Assembly (NCBI GenBank): GCA_030765065.1 | Contig: CM060980.1 | Span: 62,728,364-62,792,363 of the forward strand | Direction: 5' to 3' | DNA: 64,000 nt | DNA from: Deroplatys truncata | Taxonomy: Eukaryota > Arthropoda > Insecta > Mantodea > Mantidae | Shown here: positions 9,039 through 59,715 of the stretch, piece by piece | Layout of the letters: the number at the start of each line of letters is the position of its first letter | How positions within the stretch are numbered: position 1 is the stretch's first letter | The notes under the pieces: generated by a model | What the model saw: only the letters and a program-made list of their open reading frames with translations | Database searches by the model: none | What the model was told of the DNA's origin: nothing | Made by a program: the position numbers and the translations under genes

Positions 9039-9289
9039 TGTGTATGTGTGTGTAGCGTAATCTCGGAAACCACTCAACTGATTTTGATCATTCGTTCACT
9101 ATTAGAACCCCCTGTTCTTCTCGAAGGACATGGGGTAGGTATAAGGTGATTTTAAATTCAACTTCTAAGCGACTAAACATTATTTACGATCCTGGATATT
9201 AGAATACGAACACGTTGGAGTCAATAAAAGAACTTGTTTACCAAGAATACTGAACATTTTTAGAATGCCATGTTTCTAAATACAAATGC

Positions 9290-9549
9290 ATTTTTACTTT
9301 CTCTACTACGTATAGTAAGTAGGGGAAGTATTGTATTCCACCCAAAAATTCGATCCCGAGATTTCACTGGAAATACATGTTTTGAGATCCCCTGAATCCA
9401 ATAAAAAAGCATTTTTGGAAACATGACCGTGTGTGTGTCTGTCTGTGAACAGCATAACTCAGAAACGAACTCAGGATAAACACCAAACTTGGTATTTAGG
9501 TTCAGTACCTTCCAAGGATGCGACACGAAGGTTTTCAAGAAAATACCCC
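9290..9549 (+). repeat. Dispersed repeat R1, 5' part (split by the 10.3-kb element)
   Basis: R1 begins ACTTTCTCTACTACG-TAGTAAGTAGGGGAAGTA, a snap-back hairpin, and runs through CATTCCACCCAAAAATTCGAT, GAACAGCATAACTCA, CTTGGTATTTAGGTTCAGTA and GATGCGACACGAAGGTTTTC to AAGAAAATACCCC. It stops at 9549, exactly where the inverted-repeat element begins. The rest of the copy resumes at 19823. Confidence 0.85.
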
Positions 9550-9769
9550 AGTAGTATAGATTTGCGGGTCCTGAAACACTTAATTTATGCATGGAATGTC
9601 TATTCATATGCAAATGAGCTCCCCACCCCCATTTACCCCCACCCCCAGCTCCTTGGTAGTTTTACTTGCACCTGAGGGCCATAAATCTTGTTGAGTACAA
9701 TGGAAGCTTGACAGTTAAGCAATTAAGGTTATCCTTCACCTGTCAAAACGAACCAAGGGGTCATAAATT

Positions 9770-10330
9770 TAAGGTTCTGTAACAAAGGCGAGATGTTTTT
9801 CCTACCCATTCCACATCACGCCACTTCTGCACCTGTTGCAGTTACCCACTCCACTCCTATTGTTTGTCGAACACGTGGCATACTCATTCCACTAGCTTTT
9901 AACAAAAGAACAATGCTTACCCTTCAGCTGTCAAAATGAACAAAGCCCATGATGAATTAGGGTGTGACAAAGAGAACCTAAGCCAGTTAACAGAGAAACA
10001 AGTTCTATTGTCCGGTGCAAGCCTTTATTTCTCATTCCACTGCCCTCCATAACAAAGCCGGTTCCCTTTCCATTGTGGAAGAGATTCTATTGTGTGTGCC
10101 TTTCTATTGTCCCGGGGCAAGCCTTCTTTAAAAAGACCATCTGGCATACTCATTCCACTGCTCCATAACAAAGCCGGTCCCTTTCCATTGTGTAAGAGAT
10201 TCTATTGTGTGCCTTTCTATTGTCCTGGGCAAGACTAGTTTAGAAAGACACCTGCGGCGTTTCCCATTCCACTGCTCCATAACAAAGCCTGACCCTTTCC
10301 ATTGTTTGACCACCTGGTAGCTTAACAAAA
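9770..10330 (+). repeat. Outer TIR array with ACAAWG and CATTCCAC motifs
   Basis: About three ~120-bp units (10020-10330) repeat CATTCCACTGCTCCATAACA, AAAGCCGG, CTTTCCATTGTG, AGATTCTATTGTGTG and CTATTGTCC. I count about sixteen ACAAWG/ACAATAG cores on either strand from 9781 to 10310 and five CATTCCAC. These equal the core sites of HMG-box (Sox) and TEA-domain factors, but a role is inference. Confidence 0.7.
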
Positions 10331-10601
10331 GAATTCGAGGGTTGCTTTATGCTCGTCCTATCCTTGTTAGCGTGAAAGAGAGAGAAGTCTGTTTACCAAC
10401 TCTGCGTAACAACGTCAGAGTCGGCCATCATGATTTTGCCTGAGGGACTGTTCTCTCCGATGTTTTACGACATCCTACGAATATACCCGAACATAGTTAA
10501 CAAGCATTCTGCTTGGCCCATTTCAGGCAGGGACTCTGAAAAAGCGCCTAATATACATTTCATTACATGCATTAAACCTCTGTGTGGATATCCATAGATC
10601 G

Positions 10602-11221
10602 GTGCTCGATTCTTACTGTAATCAAACGTTTATTGCTAATGCGAAATTAATGATTGATATTATTATATCATTCTTACTGTAATCAAAAGTTTATTGCTAA
10701 TGCGAAATTAATGATTGATATTATTATATCATTACCTTAATTAATAAAAGCGCGTTGAGAGGATTGTAGCTCGACTCTTACCAAGTGAAACACTAACGCG
10801 CAATAATTATTAAACTATGTACCACCGGATTAAAAAATGTATTTATCAAATATAATTTAATTTTTTATACATCATTACCCTGATTAATGAAAGACCGTTC
10901 AGAGGACCCTAGTTCGAATCTTATGCAGCGAAACTCTAATGCTTAATAAATATTAAACTATGTAAGGTCAGATTAAAATGCATTTAACAAATATAATTTA
11001 ATTTTTATATATCATTACAATAATTAATAAAAGGGTGTTCAGGGGGTCCTAGATCGAATCTGCGAATCTCTAATGCTTAATAAATATTAAACTATGTGAG
11101 TATTGGGCGGTCACATTAAAGCGTGTTTAACAAATATAATTTAATTTATACGACATTACAATGTTTAACGATCTGTATTCTTAGGAACCCAGAGGCTCCT
11201 AGTTCGAATCTTGCCCTGCGA
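10602..11221 (+). repeat. B-box-like array 1 of the left TIR
   Basis: Five tRNA-B-box-like motifs occur: GTGCTCGATTCT (10602), AGCTCGACTCT (10768), AGTTCGAATCT (10911), AGATCGAATCT (11051) and AGTTCGAATCT (11211). The spacing is 140-165 bp. Each sits in a diverged unit ending CTTAATAAATATTAAACTATG and a TATAATTTAATTTT run. A 61-bp exact-phase tandem duplication lies at 10610-10731. No A box, acceptor stem or terminator completes a tRNA. Confidence 0.75.
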
Positions 11222-11404
11222 AACGCTATAATAAATATTAAGTTATTGAAGCAGGGGGCGGTCGGATTAAAATTGCATTTAACAACTATCATTGTTTATA
11301 TTAAACCACCGTGTATACTTAGATATCACGATGCCTAGACACCATTCTTTCTTCTTCTCCTCTGTTTTTCTTTCTAACTATCTCTTTCTTTCTCCACGAC
11401 TTGT

Positions 11405-11825
11405 ACACATTCAGGCGTTCACATATACACGAGCACTTGTACACACATCAGCAAACATACACTGGTGCACGCATGCACACACACGCACACACGTACATGT
11501 AAGTACACACACGCACACACATACACGCAAGCACATACACACACGCACATACATACACCAACACACACATACATACACCAGTACACACACGCATTCACGC
11601 ACCTCATGGGTATACATACATACACCAGTGCTCTTACACTCACGTATACATATACATGGACACACACACATACACGCGCACACACTCCCGTACATACATA
11701 CATACACCGTTACACTTGCACATACGCACACGACCACACACACACACACGTGCAAGCACATATGCCTGTTCACTTACACCCAACAGCACCAACCCACACA
11801 CGCACACACCAACTCACGCGCATGT
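11405..11825 (+). repeat. (CA)-rich alternating purine-pyrimidine tract, left TIR
   Basis: Interrupted CA/TACA repeats over ~420 bp, kept in the mirror copy at about 17548-17968. They open a 180-codon His/Thr-rich frame here and a 215-codon one in the mirror. I judge both to be low-complexity, non-coding frames. Confidence 0.85.
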
Positions 11826-11923
11826 CCTGAATGAAAAGAGACAAAATGATGCAATAAAAACTAATTATAGCTCGGGATGCGACGCGTCATTTACGATTTG
11901 CTCGAAACCGGTCTGGATGCATG

Positions 11924-12619
11924 GGTTCGAATCCTAGGAGTGATTACAAATACATCTTCTAATAACTCCAAAACTAATTAAAATAAAAACAGTAAATAAG
12001 CTTTATTACTTTTATGCCATTAGCTCGTTTCTTGTGCATGTATATTAGAGTACCAGGTGTCCCGGGTTCGACCCCTAATTTTAAAATCTTAATTATCTCA
12101 GAAACTAACAGGGATAGAGGAACGGCCCAAAGCATGATTGTTAGTTCCTATGAAGGATAATTAATGCCTTATATAATTTCCAATCAGTTGTCCCTAGTTC
12201 GAACCTTGATTTTTCAGTGACTTCCTTAATTTTCCAGTGTACACTAGAATATATCACTTAGATCAATGTTGCAACTGCATACAGGTCTTTTAAACACATC
12301 AAACTAATATTATAAATAATTTTGTTTCTGTCGTTCTGAGTTCGAATACCGATTCAATGAAGTTTACTTATAAATTTAATAACAGTAAATAATTAAGACA
12401 AAGGTACTAAATAAACCTATTACGTTTATATCATCAGATAATATCTTGCGGGCGTATATTAGGGTACCTGACGTCCAGGGTTCGATCCTAAAGTTTAAAT
12501 CTCAATTATCGCAGAAACTAGCAGAGATAGAGCTGTAGACGAAAGCATGTTTGATAGCTCATACAATGAACAATTAATGCTGTATATAATTTTCAATCAG
12601 TTGCCCCTAGTTCGAATCC
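11924..12619 (+). repeat. B-box array 2 with a 414-bp higher-order repeat, left TIR
   Basis: Six motifs: GGTTCGAATCC (11924), GGTTCGACCCC (12065), AGTTCGAACCT (12196), AGTTCGAATAC (12339), GGTTCGATCCT (12479) and AGTTCGAATCC (12609). Spacings are 141, 131, 143, 140 and 130 bp. Units 1-3 and 4-6 correspond to each other 413-415 bp apart with long flanking similarity, such as TATTAGAGTACC/TATTAGGGTACC and CTTATATAATTTCCAATCAGTTG/CTGTATATAATTTTCAATCAGTTG. This is a three-part higher-order repeat in two copies. Confidence 0.8.
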
Positions 12620-12730
12620 CGAACTTTCAATGACTTCACTGATTTTCCTCTGTACTCTAGAATACATCACTTAGATTGATGCTTTAACTGTATGCAGCTT
12701 TGTGTAACAACATTATGGATGTACTCCGTG

Positions 12731-12780
12731 TGAGAGAGAGAGAGAGAGCGAGAGAGGAAGAGAGAGAGAGCGAGAGGAAG
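12731..12780 (+). repeat. (GA)n tract upstream of TIR promoter
   Basis: Interrupted GAGAGA repeat. In insects GA tracts can bind GAGA-type factors and open chromatin near promoters, and this one ends about 140 bp upstream of the TATA box. It is mirrored at about 16594-16642. Confidence 0.8.
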
Positions 12781-12810
12781 TGAAACAAGTAGGGATAGAA
12801 GTGCTGAGAG

Positions 12811-12935
12811 CCTCCGCGCATGCGCAGCAAGAGATGATGTCATTGGATGCAATAATCACGTGACGTGTAAGCATCACAGCCATGATGACGTGCCGGCATC
12901 GCCTGGAGGGGGTTTAGATCCCTATATAAACAGAT
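12811..12935 (+). promoter_or_regulatory. Inward promoter in the left TIR
   Basis: In order: the palindrome GCGCATGCGC (12816-12825; fits the NRF1 consensus), a CRE-like TGATGTCA (12835-12842), TCACGTGACGTG (12856-12867; E-box and CRE half overlapping), a second TGACGTG (12886-12892) and a TATA box TATATAAA (12923-12930). Transcription would run towards the core. The start base is not determined; it should lie about 25-30 bp past the TATA box. Confidence 0.75.
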
Positions 12936-12954
12936 ATCTGCCCATGTTAGAACT

Positions 12955-13060
12955 GTTGTGTACTTATTAACTTTACATTCAAGTTTTAAAGAGCATTAAA
13001 AGCAACGTGAGCTGCAGGCCGTCTACACATTCAGCACATATCAAAACGTGGCAATGCAAG
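12955..13060 (+). other. Leader exon with ATG and 5' splice site (left TIR)
   Basis: The region downstream of the TATA box has no ATG in a coding context until 13054 (GGCAATGC). Two codons and one base later comes a consensus donor, CAAG|GTGAGT, with the exon ending at 13060. An identical exon lies in the right TIR. A phase-1 start of this kind would let the TIR supply the start codon of whichever gene lies downstream. Confidence 0.6.
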
Positions 13061-13169
13061 GTGAGTTTTACATAACTATACAAAATCACTGTTGGCTTTT
13101 ACAATACATTTAATTTTGTTTAAACGTTACAGTACATGAAAGACGATTCGTTACAAGGAGCATCATATT

Positions 13170-13760
13170 TTCTAATCTGTGCTTTACATTCACATGGATT
13201 TCACTGCATACTCTTCTTCAGTTCACATGATTTGCGCCACACATTCTTCTTACATAAACATTCATACGATTTTTCCCCTCATTCTTTGTTTCACTATACA
13301 CTCACATGATTTCCTCTACTCATTTTTTGTTCCCCTACAGGTTCATGCTCTGTTAACATTCACATGACTTTCTCTGCACATTCTTTGCTTCCATTAACAT
13401 TCACATGATTTTCGCCACACATTCTTCTTACATAAACATTCATACGACTTTCCCCCTCATTCTTTGTTTCACTATACACTCACATGATTTCCTCTACTCA
13501 TTCTTTGTTCCCCCTGCAGGTTCATGCTCTGTTAACATTCACACGACTTTCTCTGCACATTCTTTGCTTCCATTAACATTCACACGATCTTCGCTACACA
13601 TTCTTCTTACATAAACATTCATACGATTTTCCCCCACTCATTCTTTGTTTCACTATACATTCGCACACGATTTGGTCTACTCATTCTTTGGTTCTCTGCT
13701 GGCTCATCTTCAATGAACATTCACATGATTTTCTGTACTTATTCTTTATTTCTCTACATA
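13170..13760 (+). repeat. Tandem repeats inside the leader intron (left)
   Basis: Units of about 35-40 bp of the type CATTCACATGATTT..ACACATTCTT are organised in a ~200-bp higher-order unit, including the good acceptor-like TTCCCCCTGCAG|G at about 13510. The array starts inside the TIR and overruns its inner edge (~13569) by about 190 bp, which the right side lacks. Confidence 0.75.
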
Positions 13761-13859
13761 TTCATAGGCTTACTTACAAAACACACACACCCTAGTTCTA
13801 ATATAAAGAAGTGTATAACTTGTTCTTCAGCTTGGATAATGTAGTGAAAATAATAATTC

Positions 13860-14234
13860 ATGACAATGTCTGTTAGAGATTGGTTAGCTGATAGACTTAA
13901 CAAGATGGTTGAAGAGTGTAGTTTCCTACCGACTCGTAGAGTTCAAGATCTCGAAATAGGCCTTAACTATGAGATAAAGTCCTTAAAGAGAGTTCAAACA
14001 AGATATGATACCAGGATCGTATCTTCGCTGGAGGATTGTCAAGTGTTCTTGCCAGAGCGCTATAATTCGTTAACCGATCAAGAGATTGCAGAAATACCTG
14101 GGAACTATACCTCCAGTATAATGGCATGGCAGAGACGGGGAAATTTAAGACATGTAAATTGTCTTTTTTACATGCAAAGAAGGTGCGTAGAAGTGGCAAA
14201 CTTAAGTATTGAATGTTCTCCTATTTCACAATGA
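13860..14234 (+). CDS. Small protein of the element core, possible OB-fold type
   Basis: 124 codons. Residues 1-30 are polar (DWLADRLNKMVEE) and likely helical. Residues 33-79 show alternating short strands with YEIKSLKRVQTRYDTRIV and a conserved-looking VFLPERYNSL (62-71). I associate this Y-I..KRVQTR(F/Y)..I.....VFLP.R(F/Y) pattern with small OB-fold-like proteins of virus-like elements in arthropod genomes, possibly binding single-stranded DNA. That is recollection plus inference and not a search result. Start: ATG at 13860 or 13866. Alternatively an acceptor at 13877-13878 (GTTAGAG|AT) joins the TIR leader exon in frame, replacing the first few residues. AATAAA follows at 14245-14250, 11 bases after the stop. 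This is the only apparently intact gene of the element. Confidence 0.6.
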   Translation: MTMSVRDWLADRLNKMVEECSFLPTRRVQDLEIGLNYEIKSLKRVQTRYDTRIVSSLEDCQVFLPERYNSLTDQEIAEIPGNYTSSIMAWQRRGNLRHVNCLFYMQRRCVEVANLSIECSPISQ

Positions 14235-14244
14235 AAAATTCATA

Positions 14245-14250
14245 AATAAA
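14245..14250 (+). terminator. Polyadenylation signal after the 124-codon ORF
   Basis: AATAAA lies 11 bases downstream of the TGA. It may serve a short first transcript; a second signal at 15085 could serve a longer one. Confidence 0.5.
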
Positions 14251-14408
14251 ACAACTGACTCATTGATATTACATATAAAGATACAAAAGATGCATATTAT
14301 AGAATTTTATAAAAAATTTACGAAATCACAATATCACATGCTCTGGGTTTAATTATATCTAGCGCATTGAAATAACTCTAAATATCCGAATGTTTATACA
14401 AATCTTTG

Positions 14409-14453
14409 TGCTTCATTTTACATGTATCATTTGCTTCATTTTATATGTATCAT
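14409..14453 (+). repeat. Short 22-bp tandem duplication
   Basis: TGCTTCATTTTACATGTATCAT is followed by a near copy (TGCTTCATTTTATATGTATCAT). It lies between the two plus-strand frames of the core, just upstream of a strong acceptor (TTCTTTTCAG at 14468-14477). Confidence 0.7.
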
Positions 14454-14477
14454 AACAAAAAATGTTATTCTTTTCAG

Positions 14478-15001
14478 GTTGTTTTAGGGTGTGCAATAAG
14501 AGGAAGAAGAAGAGGAATAGCCTGCTGCCATGCAAAGGATGCTGACGCTATTTGAGGGTGGAATAAGCACTATCGGCACCTACAAGAAACATTTCGGCAA
14601 GAAACGGGTGCTGAGACATCTACATCACCGAAACACATTAAGACAGGATCCTTATATAACATTACAGGGTATACGAAGAAAAAATACGGCCAATTTTGTA
14701 TACAATTCAATGCATAGCTGAGAGCTCGAACTAGTCTCCCTATATTCACTGAAATTAAGCATTGTGAGCAATAATTTAAGTGACTGTGAATATACTTTAA
14801 GTAATGGTGAAATTTGTATCCTAAAAGACTTGAGCCCTGTATACATTAACAGCATTAAGACTGTTTGCCACGCTGGAATACAAATTATGAAAATAAAAAG
14901 AGTTTCATTTAAATAATAAGGAAATTTGCATAACCTGCTGTTACAAGTGTAATGACATATACAGAAACAATGAGTCGGACGAGAAAGTGATGGAAATGTA
15001 A
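14478..15001 (+). pseudogene. Decayed second plus-strand gene of the core with Cys cluster
   Basis: Downstream of the acceptor TTATTCTTTTCAG, the frame starting ATG 14530 (good context GCTGCCATG) is open for 63 codons and very basic (GKKRVLRHLHHRNTLRQ). It is stopped by TGA at 14719 and then open in the same frame to 14916, with coding-like SNGEICILKDLSPVYI. A +1 shift near 14897 continues to a CITCCYKC cluster (14927-14950) and a stop at 14999-15001. One stop plus one frameshift suggest a recently broken gene of at least 150 residues ending in a possible zinc-binding motif. The family is not recognised. A different frame from the acceptor joins the leader exon for about 22 codons only. Confidence 0.45.
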
Positions 15002-15049
15002 GATAAATAATAACACTAAAAGAATTAAGGTATGCTTTTACATAGTGTT

Positions 15050-15090
15050 TTTATTCATTAAAAATCCTTGCATTCCTAATGAAAAATAAA
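15050..15090. terminator. Overlapping convergent polyadenylation signals
   Basis: A plus-strand AATAAA is at 15085-15090 and a minus-strand AATAAA at 15055-15050. Transcripts from the two TIR promoters would overlap by tens of bases at their 3' ends, the ambisense layout known from invertebrate densoviruses with TIR-borne promoters. Confidence 0.6.
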
Positions 15091-15224
15091 TCATTACAAT
15101 GATTAGTTTAAGTTATGTCACAATGATCAAAAAGAGAACCGTCTTTAGATGCATTACTCGATCTTAAGTTAGAGCACCAAAAATGACAAACACGGCTTCT
15201 CCATTTTAGATGTCGTGTCACTAT

Positions 15225-15541
15225 TCAGGTAAATTCCTGTAACACAGCAGGTTGAGTATGCAGATCCGTGGTCCTAAATGGGTGAAACAGAGTCTTATCC
15301 AGTTTAACAGTCTTGAGGATCTCAGCATCAGAAAGTCGAATCACAAGCCTTCTCCACTCGATGAGTACAGGTTTAACAACAGCATTCTCTTCACCCTGAG
15401 ACGGTGTAAAGTATATAAATGTTCAACTTGACAAGGGATTCTAAACTCGTTGTTAGAGTCCAGAGCTGATGCATTATATGGTGAAAACACATGTTTCTCT
15501 TCTTAGCGATCTTGTCCTCGAATCTCGGTGTCGGTAACATT
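15225..15541 (-). pseudogene. Broken minus-strand frame, possibly capsid-like
   Basis: On the minus strand, directly after the small basic protein and in the same frame, lies DIFNVTDTEIRGQDR, a TAA at 15505-15503, then VFSPYNASALDSNNEFRIP and VEHLYTL. A one-base shift near 15405 continues with SQGEENAVVKPVLIEWRR to a stop at 15227-15225. The SNNEFRIP..EHLYTL type of phrase reminds me of jelly-roll capsid-like proteins of insect virus-like elements. I cannot verify this, and only about 95 residues remain, so a structural protein is a guess. Two disruptions make it non-functional. Confidence 0.4.
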
Positions 15542-15556
15542 GAAGATGTCCCATGA

Positions 15557-15765
15557 TTATAGGATTCTGAAGCCCAATAACTGTAGGAACTGCTGATTGC
15601 GTGATGTTAACCTGATGGGCGTCAAGGGCAGAGCATGATGTGTGCGTCGAATCATTCCATTATTATATCCTCGACGTCGTTGACTTCTTCTAAAATCTAT
15701 AGGCATTATGCTTATATCCTTGTTTCTAAAGGCAATGATATTGCTGTTATGCTCCTCTGTTTGCT
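15557..15765 (-). CDS. Small basic protein of the element core, spliced to the TIR leader
   Basis: The minus-strand frame is open from 15802. The most telling start, though, is by splicing: leader exon ATG at 16320, donor at 16314/16313 (CAAG|GTGAGT), a 548-base intron, and acceptor TTCATAG|AG at 15767-15766, which keeps the frame and gives about 71 codons. The middle is strongly basic (DFRRSQRRRGYNNGMIRRTHH), as expected of a DNA- or RNA-binding protein. The end, LTSRNQQFLQLLGFRIL, looks like a conserved short motif. The stop is at 15559-15557. A virion core or packaging role is inference. It is followed at once by the broken frame at 15225-15541. Confidence 0.5.
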
Positions 15766-16313
15766 CTATGAAGCGGATGTTTATGAACAACAAAGAATGC
15801 AAACAAGCAAAGAATGTGCAGAGAAAGTCGTGTGAATGTTAACAGAGCATGAACCTGCAGGGGGAACAAAGAATGAGTAGAGGAAATCATGTGAGTGTAT
15901 AGTGAAACAAAGAATGAGGGGGAAAGTCGTATGAATGTTTATGTAAGAAGAATGTGTGGCGAAAATCATGTGAATGTTAATGGAAGCAAAGAATGTGCAG
16001 AGAAAGTCATGTGAATGTTAACAGAGCATGAACCTGTAGGGGAACAAAAAATGAGTAGAGGAAATCATGTGAGTGTATAGTGAAACAAAGAATGAGGGGA
16101 AAAATCGTATGAATATTTATGTAAGAAGAATGTGTGGCGCAAATCATGTGAACTGAAGAAGAGTATGCAGTGAAATCCATGTGAATGTAAAGCACAGATT
16201 AGAAAATATGATGCTCCTTGTAACGAATCGTCTTTCATGTACTGTAACGTTTAAACAAAATTAAATGTATTGTAAAAGCCAACAGTGATTTTGTATAGTT
16301 ATGTAAAACTCAC
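15766..16313 (-). other. Leader intron, right side (minus strand)
   Basis: The intron is bounded by GTGAGT at 16313 and TTCATAG at 15766. It is filled mostly by the CATTCACATGATTT tandem repeats. Alternative acceptors of the CCCCTGCAG|G type lie in the repeats; using one of those gives only a short frame. Confidence 0.45.
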
Positions 16314-16420
16314 CTTGCATTGCCACGTTTTGATATGTGCTGAATGTGTAGACGGCCTGCAGCTCACGTTGCTTTTAATGTTCTTTAAAACTTGAATGTA
16401 AAGTTAATAAGTACACAACA
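16314..16420 (-). other. Leader exon with ATG and 5' splice site (right TIR)
   Basis: Mirror of the left leader exon: ATG at 16320-16318, donor after 16314. The start codon and splice site are unchanged between the two TIRs. Confidence 0.6.
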
Positions 16421-16438
16421 GTTCTAACATGGGCAGAT

Positions 16439-16560
16439 ATCTGTTTATATAGGGATCTAAACCCCCTCCAGGCGATGCCGGCACGTCATCATGGCTGTGA
16501 TGCTTACACGTCACGTGATTATTGCATCCAATGACATCATCTCTTGCTGCGCATGCGCGG
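16439..16560 (-). promoter_or_regulatory. Inward promoter in the right TIR
   Basis: Mirror of the left promoter. TATATAAA is at 16451-16444 and the NRF1-like palindrome GCGCATGCGC at 16549-16558. The CRE-like and CACGTG sites are all retained. It drives leftward transcription into the core. Confidence 0.75.
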
Positions 16561-16753
16561 AGGCTCTCAGCACTTCTATCCCTACTTGTTTCACTTCCTC
16601 TCGCTCTCTCTCTCTTCCTCTCTCGCTCTCTCTCTCTCTCACACGGAGTACATCCATAATGTTGTTACACAAAGCTGCATACAGTTAAAGCATCAATCTA
16701 AGTGATGTATTCTAGAGTACAGAGGAAAATCAGTGAAGTCATTGAAAGTTCGG

Positions 16754-17449
16754 GATTCGAACTAGGAGCAACTGATTGAAAATTATATACAGCATTAATT
16801 GTTCATTGTATGAGCTATCAAACATGCTTTCGTCTACAGCTCTATCTCTGCTAGTTTCTGCGATAATTGAGATTTAAGCTTTAGGATCAAACCCTGGACG
16901 TCAGGTACCCTAATATACGCCCGCAAGATATTATCTGATGATATAAACGTAATAGGTTTATTTAGTACCTTTGTCTTAATTATTTACTGTTATTAAATTT
17001 ATAAGTAAACTTCATTGAATCGGTATTCGAACTCAGAACGACAGAAACAAAATTATTTATAATATTAGTTTGATGTGTTTAAAAGACCTGTATGCAGTTG
17101 CAACATTGATCTAAGTGATATATTCTAGTGTACACTGGAAAATTAAGGAAGTCACTGAAAAATCAAGGTTCGAACTAGGGACAACTGATTGGAAATTATA
17201 TAAGGCATTAATTACCCTTCATAGGAACTAACAATCATGCTTTGGGCCGTTCCTCTATCCCTGTTAGTTTCTGAGATAATTAAGATTTTAAAATTAGGGG
17301 TCGAACCCGGGACACCTGGTACTCTAATATACATGCACAAGAAACGAGCTAATGGCATAAAAGTAATAAAGCTTATTTACTGTTTTTATTTTAATTAGTT
17401 TTGGAGTTATTAGAAGATGTATTTGTAATCACTCCTAGGATTCGAACCC
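16754..17449 (-). repeat. B-box array 2, right TIR
   Basis: Six mirrored motifs near 16755, 16885, 17025, 17170, 17302 and 17440. The 17302 copy (GGGGTCGAACCCGGG) and the 17440 copy (GGATTCGAACCC) keep a near-perfect B box. One copy has changed (GGATCAAACCCTGG near 16884). Confidence 0.75.
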
Positions 17450-17547
17450 ATGCATCCAGACCGGTTTCGAGCAAATCGTAAATGACGCGTCGCATCCCGA
17501 GCTATAATTAGTTTTTATTGCATCATTTTGTCTCTTTTCATTCAGGA

Positions 17548-17968
17548 CATGCGCGTGAGTTGGTGTGTGCGTGTGTGGGTTGGTGCTGTTGGGTGTAAGT
17601 GAACAGGCATATGTGCTTGCACGTGTGTGTGTGTGTGTGGTCGTGTGCGTATGTGCAAGTGTAACGGTGTATGTATGTATGTACGGGAGTGTGTGCGCGT
17701 GTATGTGTGTGTGTCCATGTATATGTATACGTGAGTGTAAGAGCACTGGTGTATGTATGTATACCCATGAGGTGCGTGAATGCGTGTGTGTACTGGTGTA
17801 TGTATGTGTGTGTTGGTGTATGTATGTGCGTGTGTGTATGTGCTTGCGTGTATGTGTGTGCGTGTGTGTACTTACATGTACGTGTGTGCGTGTGTGTGCA
17901 TGCGTGCACCAGTGTATGTTTGCTGATGTGTGTACAAGTGCTCGTGTATATGTGAACGCCTGAATGTG
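17548..17968 (-). repeat. (CA)-rich tract, right TIR
   Basis: Mirror of 11405-11825, with slightly different repeat numbers. The long His/Thr frame on the minus strand is a by-product. Confidence 0.85.
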
Positions 17969-18151
17969 TACAAGTCGTGGAGAAAGAAAGAGATAGTTAG
18001 AAAGAAAAACAGAGGAGAAGAAGAAAGAATGGTGTCTAGGCATCGTGATATCTAAGTATACACGGTGGTTTAATATAAACAATGATAGTTGTTAAATGCA
18101 ATTTTAATCCGACCGCCCCCTGCTTCAATAACTTGATAGTTATTATAGCGT

Positions 18152-18775
18152 TTCGCAGGGCAAGATTCGAACTAGGAGCCTCTGGGTTCCTAAGAATACA
18201 GATCGTTAAACATTGTAATGTCGTATAAATTAAATTATATTTGTTAAACACGCTTTAATGTGACCGCCCAATACTCACATAGTTTAATATTTATTAAGCA
18301 TTAGAGATTCGCAGATTCGATCTAGGGCCCCCTGAACACCCTTTTATTAATTATTGTAATGATATATAAAAATTAAATTATATTTGTTAAATGCATTTTA
18401 ATCTGACCTTACATAGTTTAATATTTATTAAGCATTAGAGTTTCGCTGCGTAAGATTCGAACTAGGGTCCTCTGAACGGTCTTTCATTAATCAGGGTAAT
18501 GATGTATAAAAATTATATTATATTTGATAAATACATTTTTAATCCGGTGGTACATAGTTTAATACTTATTGCGGGTTAGATTTTCACTTGGTAAGAGTCG
18601 AGCTACAATCCTCTGAACGCGCTTTTATTAATTAAGGTAATGATATAATAATATCAATCATTAATTTCGCATTAGCAATAAACTTTTGATTACAGTAAGA
18701 ATGATATAATAATATCAATCATTAATTTCGCATTAGCAATAAACGTTTGATTACAGTAAGAATCGAGCACCGATC
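18152..18775 (-). repeat. B-box-like array 1, right TIR
   Basis: Mirrored motifs near 18165, 18315, 18455, 18600 and 18762, plus the 61-bp tandem duplication at about 18640-18762. Confidence 0.75.
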
Positions 18776-19039
18776 TATGGATATCCACACAGAGGTTTAA
18801 TGCATGTAATGAAATGTATATTAGGCGCTTTTTCAGAGTCCCTGCCTGAAATGGGCCAAGCAGAATGCTTGTTAACTATGTTCGGGTATATTCGTAGGAT
18901 GTCGTAAAACATCGGAGAGAACAGTCCCTCAGGCAAAATCATGATGGCCGACTCTGACGTTGTTACGCAGAGTTGTTAAACAGACTTCTCTCTCTTTCAC
19001 GCAAACAAGGACAGGACGAGCATAAAGCAACCCTCGAAT

Positions 19040-19600
19040 TCTTTTGTTAAGCTACCAGGTGGTCAAACAATGGAAAGGGTCAGGCTTTGTTATGGAGCAG
19101 TGGAATGGGAAACGCCGCAGGTGTCTTTCTAAACTAGTCTTGCCCAGGACAATAGAAAGGCACACAATAGAATCTCTTACACAATGGAAAGGGACCGGCT
19201 TTGTTATGGAGCAGTGGAATGAGTATGCCAGATGGTCTTTCTAAAGAAGGCTTGCCCCGGGACAATAGAAAGGCACACACAATAGAATCTCTTCCACAAT
19301 GGAAAGGGAACCGGCTTTGTTATGGAGGGCAGTGGAATGAGAAATAAAGGCTTGCACCGGACAATAGAACTTGTTTCTCTGTTAACTGGCTTAGGTTCTC
19401 TTTGTCACACCCTAATTCATCATGGGCTTTGTTCATTTTGACAGCTGAAGGGTAAGCATTGTTCTTTTGTTAAAAGCTAGTGGAATGAGTATGCCACGTG
19501 TTCGACAAACAATAGGAGTGGAGTGAGTAACTGCAACAGGTGCAGAAGTGGCGTGATGTGGAATGGGTAGGAAAAACATCTCGCCTTTGTTACAGAACCT
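19040..19600 (-). repeat. Outer TIR motif array, right
   Basis: Mirror of the ACAAWG/CATTCCAC array. The AACAAAG, ACAATGG, ACAATAG and GTGGAATG cores are retained unit by unit. Confidence 0.7.
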
Positions 19601-19822
19601 TAAATTTATGACCCCTTTGTTCGTTTTGACAGGTGAAGGATAACCTTAATTGCTTAACTGTCAAGCTTCCATTGTACTCAACAAGATTTATGGCCCTCAG
19701 GTGCAAGTAAAACTACCAAGGAGCTTGGGGTGGGGGTAAATGGAGGTGGGGAGCTCATTTGCATATGAATAAACATTCCATGCATAAATTAAGTGTTTCA
19801 GGACCCGCAAATCTATACTACT

Positions 19823-20475
19823 TCCCCCACCCCTAATTACCCTTTACATGGAAGATTTTTCGAAAATTTTAATTTTCTCAAAAACGGCTTTAACGATTTT
19901 GATTAAAATATCATATGTTTAAGATATTTTTATGAAAAATAAAATGTATATCTTGAATTTTCTGGGAATGTCTCCAAAAGTATTCTTCATTGTGAACGAC
20001 TTTTTCATAACTGGTAAACCATAAGAGATAGACAAAATGTTACTACAGGAAAAATGTAGATCGCGTTAAAATACACAATTTATGTTATATACATTTTTTT
20101 GTTGAGTGAACCATTTTCGAGATATTGCTTGTTACTCCCTTAAATTTTTCAATAATTTTCTCAAAGGGGAATTCGTTATTCATTTTTTTTGTCTTGGATA
20201 TGCAAAGAGTATTAATCTGTGGGAAAGGGAATGGTGCTGCACCTAGGAACCAGCTATTAAGAGATATGTATGTGCTTAAAGGCTACTGTATTTCCAAATT
20301 GCCCTTGTAAATATACATTCCCCTTACATCTACAAGAAAATTAGCAATAAGATAGAGTCTGTACATGTTTATCTCGATTAACATGAAGTAGATGGAGAAT
20401 AAGCGTTTGTAAAATAGTTTGTACAAGAGTAGAGAAAGTCATGTGAGTGTAACACATAAGATTTTTTTAGATATG
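19823..20475 (+). repeat. Dispersed repeat R1, 3' part (continuation across the insertion)
   Basis: It resumes with CCCCCACCCCTAATTACCCT, TTACATGGAAGATTTTTCG and AACGGCTTTAACGATTTTGA and ends with GTAGAGAAAGTCATGTGAGT, the normal R1 3' end. With 9290-9549 it makes one R1 copy of about 910 bp. Confidence 0.85.
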
Positions 20476-30084: not shown

Positions 30085-30950
30085 GCTATGTCTACTTTTT
30101 CTCCTACGTACATAGTAGGCAAAGAAGGTATTGCATTCCACCTAAACATTCGATACCGAGATTTCAACGGAAATACATGTTTTGAGGCCCCCTGAATAAA
30201 AAAATAGAAAACGGTTCGTGTGTGTCTGTGAACAGCATAACTAAAAAACGTAAAGTAGGATACATATCAAACTTGGTATTTGGTTTCAGTATTTTTCAAA
30301 GATGCGACACAAAGATTTTCAAGAAAATCCTCCACATCCTAGACTACATTTACATGGACGATTTTTCGAAAATTTTTATTTTCTAATAAACGGCTTTAAC
30401 GATTTTGATTAAAATACCACATATTACATATTCACGCGGCAAATAAAATCTTATCTTGAATTTTCTGTTATTAGCCTGTAAAGTCCACTTCATTCGGAAG
30501 ACATTTTGTATAAACTTGCATAACTGGTAAACGTTCAGCGATAGATAAAAACTTAGTACATATAAAAAAAGTAGATTTCTTTAAAACATACAATTTATTT
30601 CAAATAACTTTTTTTGTGGCATCAGCCATTTCCGAGATATCTGTTACTAATGATTCGAATTCTTCATTACTTGGTCATTATTTAGTCTTTTCAACATTCA
30701 GTTGTTTCTTTAGATGACATGGAAACAGTATGAAATTTTAAGGTAGCGTATTGCGTCCAGCTCTTAAACATTTGACTATCGTTGTTCCCTATGTATCTAT
30801 GACGAAATGTGTAATGTAGCTATTTGGAAAGATTTATTTGGGTTAAAATGAAGTAGATAGAAAAATAAGCTTTAGTAAGAATAGTTTGTATACTCACTAA
30901 TAAGCGATAGTGGGTAGAGAAAGTCGTGTGAATGTAACACATCAATTTTT
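30085..30950 (+). repeat. Dispersed repeat R1, nearly full copy
   Basis: It begins CTACTTTTTCTCCTACGTACATAGTAGG and ends GGGTAGAGAAAGTCGTGTGA. It includes GAACAGCATAACT, the ACATTTACATGGACGATTTTTCG segment and TGGCATCAGCCATTTCCGAG. This is the best copy for seeing the uninterrupted insertion site of the 10.3-kb element (about 30325-30345). Confidence 0.85.
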
Positions 30951-31004: not shown

Positions 31005-31886
31005 TCTTTTTACTTTCTCTAATACGTATAGTAAGTAGGGGAAGTATTGTATTCCACCCAAAAAATCGATACCGAGATTTCACGGAGACATGTTTTGAAA
31101 CCCCTGAATCCCCCCCCCAAAAAAAAACATCTTTAGAAAAAGATCCGCGCGTACACGCTTGTGTGAACAGCATAACTCAAAAACGAAAAGTCGAATAAGT
31201 ATCAAATTTGGTATTTAGGTTTAGTACCTTCCAAAGATGGAACACAAAGACGTTCAAGAAACTTCCACCACAAACTACGCTTTACATGGAAGATTTTTCG
31301 AAACTTTTGATTTTATACAAATGGCTTTAATGATTCTGATTAAAATACCATATATTAAAAGGTATTTACATGACAAATAAGATGTATATTTTGAATTTTC
31401 TGGTAATAGCCTTTGAAGTCCTCTTGACTCGGAAATAATTTTCTATAATCTAGTATAACTGGTAAACGTTAAGCGATAGACCAAAACGTACTACACAAAA
31501 ATTTAGATCTCCTTAAAGCACAAAATTTATTTGAAATAACTTTTTTTGTGGCATCAGCCATTTTCTAGATATTCGTTATTAATGGTTCGAATTGTTCAAT
31601 GCTTGGTCATTTTTTTAAATTCCTGTCGATTTTCAATTGTTTCTCACGATGTCATGGAAAGCATTTGTAATTTTAAGGGCAGCGTATAACGCCCAGTTCT
31701 AAAACATTTGACTATCGATATTCTCTTTGTATCTATAACGAAACATGTAGTGCAGCTATTTCCGGAAAGGTTTATCTCAATTAACATTAACTAGATAGGA
31801 AAATAAAGTTTTGCAAGATTAATTTATATATCCAGTAATAAGCGATATAGGGTAGAGAAGGTCATTAAATGTAGAACATCAGATTT
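31005..31886 (+). repeat. Dispersed repeat R1, second copy in tandem
   Basis: Same layout as the preceding copy and separated from it by ~55 bp. It starts TTTTTACTTTCTCTAATACG and ends GGGTAGAGAAGGTCATTAAA. Confidence 0.85.
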
Positions 31887-57417: not shown

Positions 57418-58437
57418 CTATTTTCTGTAGTATACACCATTATTGTCGACAATATATTGCCATTTCTCTGAAAGCTTATAAATTCCATTTCTCCAAAATG
57501 TGGGGGTTTTGTGGTTGATGAACTCTTGGAGGTTCAGTCTGCAGTCCTCCAAGAAAGTGAGGCATTTGTCATTCAGGAAATTCTGCAGGGAACAGAATAG
57601 ATGAAAGTCGGATGGGGCAATGTCTGAAGAATAAGGCGGTTGGGGCAACACATCCTATTCAAAATTACGCAACGTCTGACGGATGACCATAGAGGTATGT
57701 GGTCTGGCGTTGTCGTGGTGAAAGAAGACATCGTTTCCAAATTCCGGTTTTTCTCTTCAATGGCTGCCTTGAGACGATCTAACTAAGAACAGCATTTCTC
57801 GGAATTGATAGTCTCATTATTCGGAAGAAGTTCGTAATACAAGATTCCTTTGCAATCTCACCAAATGCATAGCATAACCTTTCCTGGATGCAACCCTGGT
57901 TTAGGAACCGATAGTGATGGCTGTCCTTTCTTGCGACATGATTTACTCTTTCGGGCGCTGTTGTACACAATCCACTTCTCATCTCCAGTTACCAGCCGTT
58001 CCAGAAAAGGATCATTCTGATTGCGTCTCAGTAAGGAGCCACAGATGGAAACTCGCTGAATCAAATTCGCTTCACCCAGTTCGTAAGGAACCCATACATG
58101 GCGAATATTTATTTTCAAGTAACTTAATTTTTTCAAGTTCCTGGCTACAGTAGCGCGAACTAAATTGAGCTTCAATGCCAACACCCGAGTTGTCATTCGT
58201 GGATTAACATTTCATGAATTCTTTCCACTCCGTAATCATTGGCCATCCAGATCGAGGTTTGTCTTTTAGGGAGAAATTCACTGATCGAAATCAGCTAAAC
58301 CACTTTTGACATGCTCGATTCGTTACTGCATCTTCCCCTTAGACAGCACAAATTTTCTGCCGGCATTGTGAGGCGGTTTTACCCTTACGATAATAAAACA
58401 ACATAAGGTTTCGGAAATGTTCCTTTTTGCTTTCCAT
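57418..58437 (-). pseudogene. Decayed mariner transposase, minus strand
   Basis: From ATG 58437: MESKKEHFRNLMLFYYRKGK with SQCRQKICAV (helix-turn-helix), ACQKWF, LALKLNLVRATVARNLKKL, then LERLVTGDEKWIVYNSARK with the first catalytic Asp. FHHDNARPHTS near 57710 has the second Asp and PPYSSDIAPSDFHLF the third, in a D34D spacing. The end is WQYIVDNNGVYYRK with stop 57420-57418. Frameshifts and stops occur in the middle, including one between Asp 2 and Asp 3. No terminal repeats were identified. Confidence 0.85.
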
Positions 58438-58811: not shown

Positions 58812-59715
58812 AATGATGAACAAACAATATTAAAAAATCTGATGTGATACATTTACATGGCATTCTCTACCCTATATCTTTATTAGTGAGTATACAATCA
58901 CTTCTTACTAAAGTCTGTATTTCTGTCTACTTTATTTTAATCATCCAAATAAACCTTTGTAGAAATAGCTACACTACACATTTCGTTATAGATACAAAGG
59001 GAACAGCGATAGTCAAATGTTTAAGAACTGGACGCTATACGCTAGCCTTAAAATTCCATACTGTTTCCATGCAATCGCGAGAAACAGCTGAATGTTAAAA
59101 GGACTTTAAAGAATGACCAAATAATGAACAATTCGAACCATTAGTAACGGATATCTCGGAAATGGCTGATTCCAACATAAAAGGTTATTTCGAGTAAATT
59201 GTGTGTTTTAAAGAGATCTACATTGTTTGTGAAGTACGTTTTCGTATATCCCTTAGCGTTTGTTATACAAGATTATACAGAATTCCTTCCGAATAAAGAG
59301 GACCTTAGAAGCTATTCCCAGAAAATTCAATATATATAGTTTATTTGTCATGTAAATATCTTTAATATATGGTATTTTAATCAAAATTGTTAGAGCCATT
59401 TTTATAAAATAAAAAATTTCAAAAAATGTTCCGTGTAAAGAGTAGTTTGTGGTCGGGGAATTTTCTTGAAAGTTTTCTTGTTGCATCTTTAGAAGGTACT
59501 GAACCTAAATATTTACCAGGTTTGGTGTTTATCCGACTTTTAGTTTTTTAGTTATGCTGTTCACACATTCATACACGGACCTTTTCCTAAAAATTATTTT
59601 TTTTTGGATTCAGGGGTCTTCAAAACACATATTTCCGGTGAAATATCGGTACTGAGTTTATGAGTGAAATGCAATACCTTACCTACTATGTGCATGGTGA
59701 AGAAAGTAAAAAAGA
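58812..59715 (-). repeat. Dispersed repeat R1, full copy, inverted
   Basis: It starts (plus strand) ATGTGATACATTTACATGGC and CTCTACCCTATATC and ends ACTATGTGCATGGTGAAGAA. All R1 landmarks are present in reverse order. Confidence 0.8.

Follow-up and report, generated by a model that had tools for sequence, protein, structure and literature searches.

Mavericks, or Polintons, are regarded as viruses with the lifestyle of a transposon. The subject of this study is a 10.27-kb element at positions 9550-19822 of a stretch of 64,000 nucleotides, hereafter the window, from contig CM060980.1 of the mantis Deroplatys truncata (assembly GCA_030765065.1, positions 62,728,364 to 62,792,363, forward strand), which we compare with Mavericks and their relatives. 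Among intact Mavericks of vertebrates, (AGT)2//(ACT)2 is the most frequent pair of ends, the flanking duplication is 6 bp long and the inverted repeats measure 46-1,447 bp (PMC8097293). In adenovirus and related systems, protein-primed replication makes use of short terminal reiterations, and the same is expected of Mavericks (PMC3480470, PMC8097293). Hundreds of defective Maverick copies in A. mexicanum and S. punctatus have been called perplexing (PMC8097293).

The mantis element resembles Mavericks in its (AGT)2//(ACT)2 ends, in its 6-bp duplication and in having arms that are common to gene-bearing copies. It differs from them in the length of these arms, which is 4.02 kb in the window copy and about 4.0-6.9 kb in its family against 46-1,447 bp, a range that refers to vertebrates only; the window arms are nearly three times as long as the maximum given for the intact vertebrate elements (1,447 bp). 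It also differs in that the window copy has no complete core gene, the capsid gene being present only as a broken remnant, and in that the capsid-side end stands twice. We conclude, with a probability of about 0.86, that the element is a non-autonomous, palindromic satellite of a Maverick lineage, resembling defective-interfering genomes and copied in trans by Maverick machinery that re-matches its arms. The window copy is a Maverick derivative; it is not a complete Maverick, a new kind of virus or a relative of the parvoviruses. In the literature searched, mostly without subscription papers, no mention of a non-autonomous Polinton or Maverick under that name was found and no listed title describes such palindromes; this does not establish priority.

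The whole assembly (4.29 Gb, 818 contigs) was searched with window positions 9500-10500 as the arm query, and the best 40 of 3,574 first-look candidates, at 91-100% identity, were scored. The original prediction, made from the letters of the window, had recommended a search for further copies with different cores, and such copies exist: besides the window copy, the scored matches contain at least 13 further inverted pairs, 5.3-36.7 kb long, in the same genome. Arm ends were fetched for 14 pairs, the window copy and 13 others. Six-base duplications are exact in 11 of these, match at 5/6 bases in two (the window copy and C16d) and are absent in C16f, the flanks of which are an inverted duplication; duplications of 5/6 or 6/6 bases in 13 of 14 inverted pairs are beyond chance. 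All tips start with AGTAG, and AGTAGT stands at both ends in 12 of the 14 pairs. In four relatives of 15-16 kb (C8, C16b, C16d and C16e) most of the window core finds a match on either side, in opposite orientation, and the inner pieces that were fetched continue the palindrome by 1.6-2.9 kb. Counting the 4.0-kb outer arm, their arms are about 5.6-6.9 kb long, the part between about 1.7 and 4.0 kb into the arm lying outside the fetched pieces. C2 is a near-perfect palindrome with a centre of 105 bp. Most of the window core is arm sequence in the 15-16-kb relatives and hence not unique to a core; the window copy therefore combines a 6.2-kb arm with a 4.0-kb one.

The centres of five copies are about 93-94% alike among the matches listed. 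A 21-bp minisatellite occupies the centre of the long palindromes: in L016 (3376-4516) it has 54 units, and similar offsets were seen in L010, L018, L019 and L021. It opens long but meaningless reading frames in several frames, and the long overlapping open reading frames (ORFs) in the 15-16-kb centres were accordingly dismissed as genes. Two further arrangements were seen on contig C16. A 36.7-kb copy at C16:58861869-58898855 (L040, L061-L065, L041) has an exact duplication, arm ends that are 99.9% identical and a nested inverted structure of ~17.6 kb, its longest arm matches being 99.8-100% identical. At C16:629496111-629523380 (L050-L052, L055, L056) three arms stand together, and the host flanks of one pair are exact inverted copies (124/124 bases), perhaps an inverted duplication that involved a satellite copy.

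Relatives encoding polymerase B or integrase, a search for which had also been recommended, are represented by C16a and C11, each with an integrase match; the polymerase is recognised by motifs in C16a and by a weak match in C11. C16a (L012/L013) is a 19.3-kb pair with a double-jelly-roll capsid gene (PF21738, E 1.1e-86), a phospholipase A2-like gene (PF08398, E 1.2e-14) the product of which also matches adenovirus protein X below threshold, a Pox_A32-type ATPase (E 1e-6) and an rve integrase (E 1.4e-9) that passes its Pfam cut-off; an adenovirus-protease-like ORF is sub-threshold. For its capsid ORF, no relative was confirmed among viral contigs and none was found in PDB. A 918-codon frame in C16a holds YMDTDSF and KKMNNSVYG, which we take to be polymerase motifs, and spans the whole polymerase frame of C11 (L009, 15.5 kb), a counterpart that is 94-96% identical and matches DNA_pol_B_2 below threshold (E 2.7e-4). 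Together, the polymerase, integrase and neighbouring ORFs of C11 are 88-99% identical to those of C16a. The adintoviruses (Eupolintoviridae) carry genes for capsid, protease, FtsK-type ATPase, integrase and polymerase (PMC8363768), and their definition uses an OTU-like polymerase domain and an integrase chromodomain (PMC11071296). C16a likewise holds capsid, protease-like, ATPase, integrase and polymerase-motif genes; no Pfam match to the OTU-like domain or the chromodomain was found in its frames, and it is therefore filed only as a Maverick/Polinton. Both C16a and C11 are gene-bearing Mavericks, and neither is claimed to be active.

C11 has itself undergone a rearrangement. Its second arm, 3.57 kb long and of the polymerase type, starts directly after the phospholipase-like gene, of which amino acids (aa) 1-212 of 220 are matched (L009:7343-7543 and L027:2-427), with the edge at about L027:429; the capsid gene, the next ORF and the protease gave no match at 1e-3 beside the copied arm. 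C11 has thus copied the other, polymerase-side end, which indicates that end-copying happened more than once in this lineage.

Comparison with C16a also shows which end the palindromes carry. Reading inward from the arm, L010 and L019 contain the capsid remnant, the next ORF (44-50% identity across copies), a protease-like piece (31 aa, 87-90%), a phospholipase-like gene (62-72%) and the start of the ATPase gene (57-61%), agreeing in order and strand with the capsid side of C16a. The same arrangement is seen in L016, L018 and L021, where one or more pieces went undetected. Neither the integrase nor, save for a 31% fragment in C12, the polymerase found a match in the palindromic pieces fetched. 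From this gene order it follows that the capsid-side end stands at both ends of the palindromes.

The palindromes also share their damage. One deletion junction in the capsid gene recurs at 97-100% identity, on the two arms of L016, L018 and L019 alike and on a single arm of L010, L011 and L021; in L014 and in L012, which is undeleted, just half of the junction finds a match. With a 401-bp junction query, the best 40 of 2,490 first-look candidates were scored, and all 40 match at 98% or more over at least 399 of 401 bases, at no fewer than 26 loci including the window copy; 14 of the 26 loci are inverted pairs in the same orientation. Six junction copies with 5/6 or 6/6 duplications (the window copy, C8, C9, C16b, C16d and C16e) have mutually unlike flanks, and in a comparison covering the 14 end-fetched pairs the only likeness between the flanks of different copies was that of the host repeat R1 in the window copy and C7 (84-86%). 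As the same deletion is found at independent sites, the damage preceded the spreading. An ordinary decaying Maverick, that is, an old copy that lost its genes in place and has long arms by accident, would account for a broken capsid gene, and vertebrate Mavericks are indeed mostly degraded (PMC8097293); however, it predicts neither one and the same broken junction at at least 26 loci among 40 scored matches nor six junction copies with unrelated flanks and duplications of their own, and we regard it as very improbable. The simplest account of these sequences would be a single founder in which polymerase and integrase were gone by then and the capsid gene no longer worked. Since such a founder lacked polymerase and integrase, mobilisation in trans is strongly implied by the comparison; the family was amplified after losing its replication genes, as is the mark of a trans-mobilised satellite.

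A second regularity concerns the two arms of each copy. A tree built from the first 1.5 kb of 27 arms places the two arms of a copy together as sisters for all 13 complete pairs (support 0.94-1.0), C16f with its inverted duplication included. Within a copy, the arms are 98.2-99.9% identical in 11 of the 13 pairs, against a mean of 90.9% and a best value of 96.8% between copies. Either both arms are made from one template in each round of replication or conversion between them is frequent. The arms of the window copy diverge by 0.62%, suggesting that this copy is probably young. Such re-matching is not predicted for a cut-and-paste fold-back transposon of the Galileo/Foldback kind, moved by a transposase foreign to Mavericks, even though Galileo typically has very long arms that contain tandem repeats and reach their greatest length in the non-autonomous forms without transposase (PMC3573991). 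Galileo, moreover, has a 7-bp duplication, a P-type transposase and arms of up to about 1.26 kb (PMC3573991), whereas the mantis copies have six-base duplications and (AGT)2 ends, no P-type transposase was found in the ORFs scanned, and the identical type of arm bounds Maverick gene sets. We consider this explanation even less probable than decay in place.

The window copy is a discrete insertion with two inverted arms, and its features are as follows.

9544-9549, no strand: left target-site duplication TACCCC, 5/6 match to the right copy
9550-13569, plus strand: left inverted arm, 4.02 kb, from alignment with the right arm
9550-9559, plus strand: left tip AGTAGTATAG, with the (AGT)2 Maverick end motif (motif from PMC8097293)
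9550-15792, plus strand: stretch that forms the inverted arm in the 15-16-kb relatives, from comparison with them
10028-10305, plus strand: 114-bp subterminal tandem repeats, mirrored at 19067-19344
12789-13075, plus strand: promoter-like module and splice donor, mirrored at about 16300-16585 on the minus strand
12816, 12923 and 13058, plus strand: NRF1-like palindrome, TATA box and AAG/GTGAGT donor, respectively, as sequence motifs
13222-13734, plus strand: 178-bp repeats with acceptor-like ends, mirrored at 15805-16152
13860-14234, plus strand: ORF A, 124 aa, leaving the family form after about codon 82
14382-14721, plus strand: remnant of ORF B, shortened and interrupted here
15111-15742, minus strand: remnant of the Maverick double-jelly-roll major capsid gene, which lacks about aa 55-189 owing to an internal deletion
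15707-15793, minus strand: short remnant of the Maverick gene that follows (L012:1170-1934), 48% over 33 aa
15793-15804, no strand: junction at which the palindrome centre was lost in this copy
15805-19822, minus strand: right inverted arm, 4.02 kb
19813-19822, minus strand: right tip CTATACTACT
19823-19828, no strand: right target-site duplication TCCCCC

Most of what had been said of this structure from the letters stands. Aligned with each other over 4,022 columns, the predicted inverted repeats of ~4.0 kb differ by 25 substitutions, and 6 of the columns are gaps. Because the arms differ at 25 columns, the palindrome consists of two distinct sequences, which weighs against a mirrored assembly error; an artefact of assembly was rejected on this ground and because the same layout was found again at independent sites. 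The tip AGTAGTATAG reads inward at 9550 (plus strand) and at 19813-19822 (minus strand), with no third such site in the 64 kb, so that the claim of inverse, Polinton-type tips (AGTAGT...ACTACT) holds as well. The tip 19-mer was not found in viral contigs. The near-perfect duplication TACCCC/TCCCCC matches at 5/6 bases. For an empty-site query, both host flanks (300 bases each) were joined on one copy of the duplication, and seven R1 places in the window each aligned with this query in a single stretch running through the join (347-576 columns, 68-80% identity, for example 31007-31573 and 59151-59712). As these seven R1 copies run uninterrupted across the join, the insertion site heals when the element is removed, as had been proposed.

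Some side observations were made in the window. R1 (9250-9549 and 19829-20128) recurs often in the 64 kb, nine alignments crossing the joined flanks at 68-80%; copies lie near 30093, 31007, 32472, 33567, 42055, 53094, 59712 and 63492. An ORF fragment at 57858-58211 (minus strand) presumably resembles a mariner transposase. In the outer 800 bp of the arm (9550-10350), ACAAAG/ACAATG motifs are dense (11 against 1.6 in shuffles), and GTTCGANNC, which we take to be similar to a tRNA B box, is repeated further inward (10700-12700; 7 against 0.2 in shuffles). Both enrichments were left unused as evidence, having been picked after looking and lying partly inside tandem repeats.

The original prediction had held that no Polinton polymerase or integrase is present and that the core codes only for small proteins. 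The first part stands, since neither a protein-primed polymerase B nor an rve integrase was found in this copy; a complete absence of Polinton genes does not, because the core retains the capsid remnant at 15111-15742 on the minus strand. Its minus-strand pieces match aa 23-54, 190-246 and 273-291 of the C16a capsid ORF at 70-89% aa identity, and 81-85% at the DNA level. The adjoining remnant of the next gene is weak when taken by itself (E 0.001) and is backed by matches of 104-141 aa in relatives. ORF A is intact in other copies in a form of 117 aa. No homologue of it was found above the cut-off in Pfam, below E 0.08 in PHROGs, or in PDB, the protein collection or viral contigs; weak matches to Cas3_C and MerR were disregarded, and an AlphaFold2 model from the single sequence is not interpretable (mean pLDDT 43.9). 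Constraint on ORF A was not seen in the ratio of nonsynonymous to synonymous change (dN/dS 0.44 in frame and 0.46 in a wrong frame, 10 rows) or in the variable columns by codon position (12/18/16). ORF B is open from stop to stop in other copies (125-130 aa), and a relative of it adjoins the capsid-side arm of C16a (L032:3203-3464); no constraint was seen here either (dN/dS by frame 0.72/0.41/0.80, own frame 0.80, 8 rows). The other ORF pieces of the core gave no Pfam match above the cut-off and no confirmed relative in viral contigs, and one 65-aa piece had no confirmed relative in the protein collection. We make no claim that the satellite depends on a protein it encodes itself.

The inward-facing promoter-like modules that had been noted at both ends were also found again. 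The motif AAGGTGAGT occurs once per strand in the window, each time inside an arm, and a consensus splice donor lies 132-135 bases beyond the TATA box; the names of these motifs (NRF1-like, TATA, donor) are presumptive. The module is conserved in other copies, being kept at 97-99% in the palindromic arms fetched there (both arms of C7 and C2, one each of C9 and C12); it is not in the other C9 arm (L058), and C3 matches only partly. In the gene-bearing copies it is 78-81% identical, in both arms of C11 and in C16a in the polymerase-side arm only. Most simply, the inward promoters would be a polymerase-side promoter carried along with its arm, from which transcription may proceed. The ambisense look of the element arises because one end, promoter included, stands at both ends.

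This look had suggested a parvovirus-like logic, which did not survive. A parvovirus- or bidnavirus-like virus with ambisense genes would explain inward promoter-like modules at both ends, and bidnaviruses do share with the element a linear DNA and Polinton-derived ends, their polymerase and repeats deriving from Polintons (PMC4061559). For BmBDV, the main segment is given as the carrier of the polymerase, and VD2 as the carrier of other genes (PMC4061559). Bidnaviruses differ, however, in being free viruses with a parvovirus-type capsid; their tips are GTGTGTGT (PMC4061559). No parvovirus gene and no bidnavirus set of polymerase B, parvovirus-type helicase and capsid was found in the ORFs scanned, the recognisable gene is a Maverick capsid remnant, and near the tip there is no terminal hairpin, only four short imperfect inverted pairs (11-15 nt; fold z -0.64). 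We consider this the least probable of the explanations weighed here. The same modules, together with long complementary arms that include capsid sequence, bear on another possibility, namely that the host keeps the palindromes because their fold-back transcripts yield small RNAs against Mavericks, so that spread or retention would be partly selected. This is conjectured from the layout; mobility by itself accounts for the copy number, and we think the idea unlikely, if less so than decay in place.

The satellite of a Maverick lineage that we favour could have arisen as follows. A Maverick arm with the polymerase-side promoter block would first have been copied onto the capsid side, and the capsid-side end would then have been copied onto the opposite end, giving a palindrome without polymerase and integrase. 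With its Maverick-type tips and duplications retained, this palindrome would multiply with machinery supplied in trans, namely a Maverick polymerase that is primed by protein and replicates the linear DNA from its AGTAGT tips, and a Maverick integrase for the insertion. Each round would re-match the arms, for example when a displaced strand folds back and is copied, and such fold-back or template switching could also account for the copying of an end onto the other side. The window copy has in addition lost its centre, which left it with a 6.2-kb and a 4.0-kb arm.

By analogy, the satellite appears to parallel an inherited defective-interfering genome. Adenovirus defective genomes with duplicated ends offer the nearest comparison; the available parts of adenovirus reviews mention only left-end fragments in incomplete particles. 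Both are derived from a linear genome of the protein-primed kind and both keep one end and lose the rest, whereas the Maverick satellite is integrated in the host genome and has multiplied there. More tentatively, and at somewhat less than even odds, we propose that Mavericks may make palindromic defective-interfering genomes by end-copying, which here would have become heritable, self-sustaining satellites, copied and inserted by a helper, with arms repaired at every replication, and perhaps dampening the helper through competition or fold-back capsid RNA.

Several observations weigh against a trans-copied Maverick satellite. No transposition, transcript or particle was observed. An exact 6/6 duplication was not found at the window copy, which has 5/6. 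The promoter block is polymerase-side in C16a and capsid-side in the palindromes, so that an extra step is needed. C12 carries its polymerase-like fragment (31%), and L014 and L016 carry a piece of 43-51 aa (41-44%) of a gene from the other half; with the half-junction of L014, this means that a single simple founder fails to explain every copy. Over the first 1,500 bp, within-copy identity is low in C16a (93.1%) and C3 (76.1%), values that we put down to an indel and a short arm, and gene conversion within copies that were already inserted could explain part of the similarity of arms. Even with the limit set at E 10, DNA_pol_B_2 found no match in the 918-codon frame of C16a, and with the sub-threshold match in C11 the polymerase call rests on motifs and a weak match. 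C11 has no capsid genes and its polymerase frame is interrupted, and no complete helper of the lineage has been shown. PF03175 polymerase matches number at least 152 in the genome, from 76 of 11,882 candidates that were scored, and the frames listed reach 1,350 codons; the four polymerase frames sampled (L022-L025) matched none of the ORFs of C16a and C11 in blastp at 1e-5 and thus look like other Maverick lineages. Two of these loci, L024 and L025 on contig C3, share 99.97% identity across 3,549 bases, which points to recent activity of such other lineages.

How broken Mavericks multiply is an open question, and the layout of this family suggests a mechanism: one end stands at both ends, the core genes were lost before spreading and the arms are re-matched in each copy. 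The family offers sequence evidence for replicative fold-back copying in Mavericks. It also presents a parasite of a parasite in an animal genome, the copies of which assemblies already available allow one to count and date. If the reading as heritable defective-interfering genomes is true, it would account for the amplified defective Mavericks in axolotl and tuatara.

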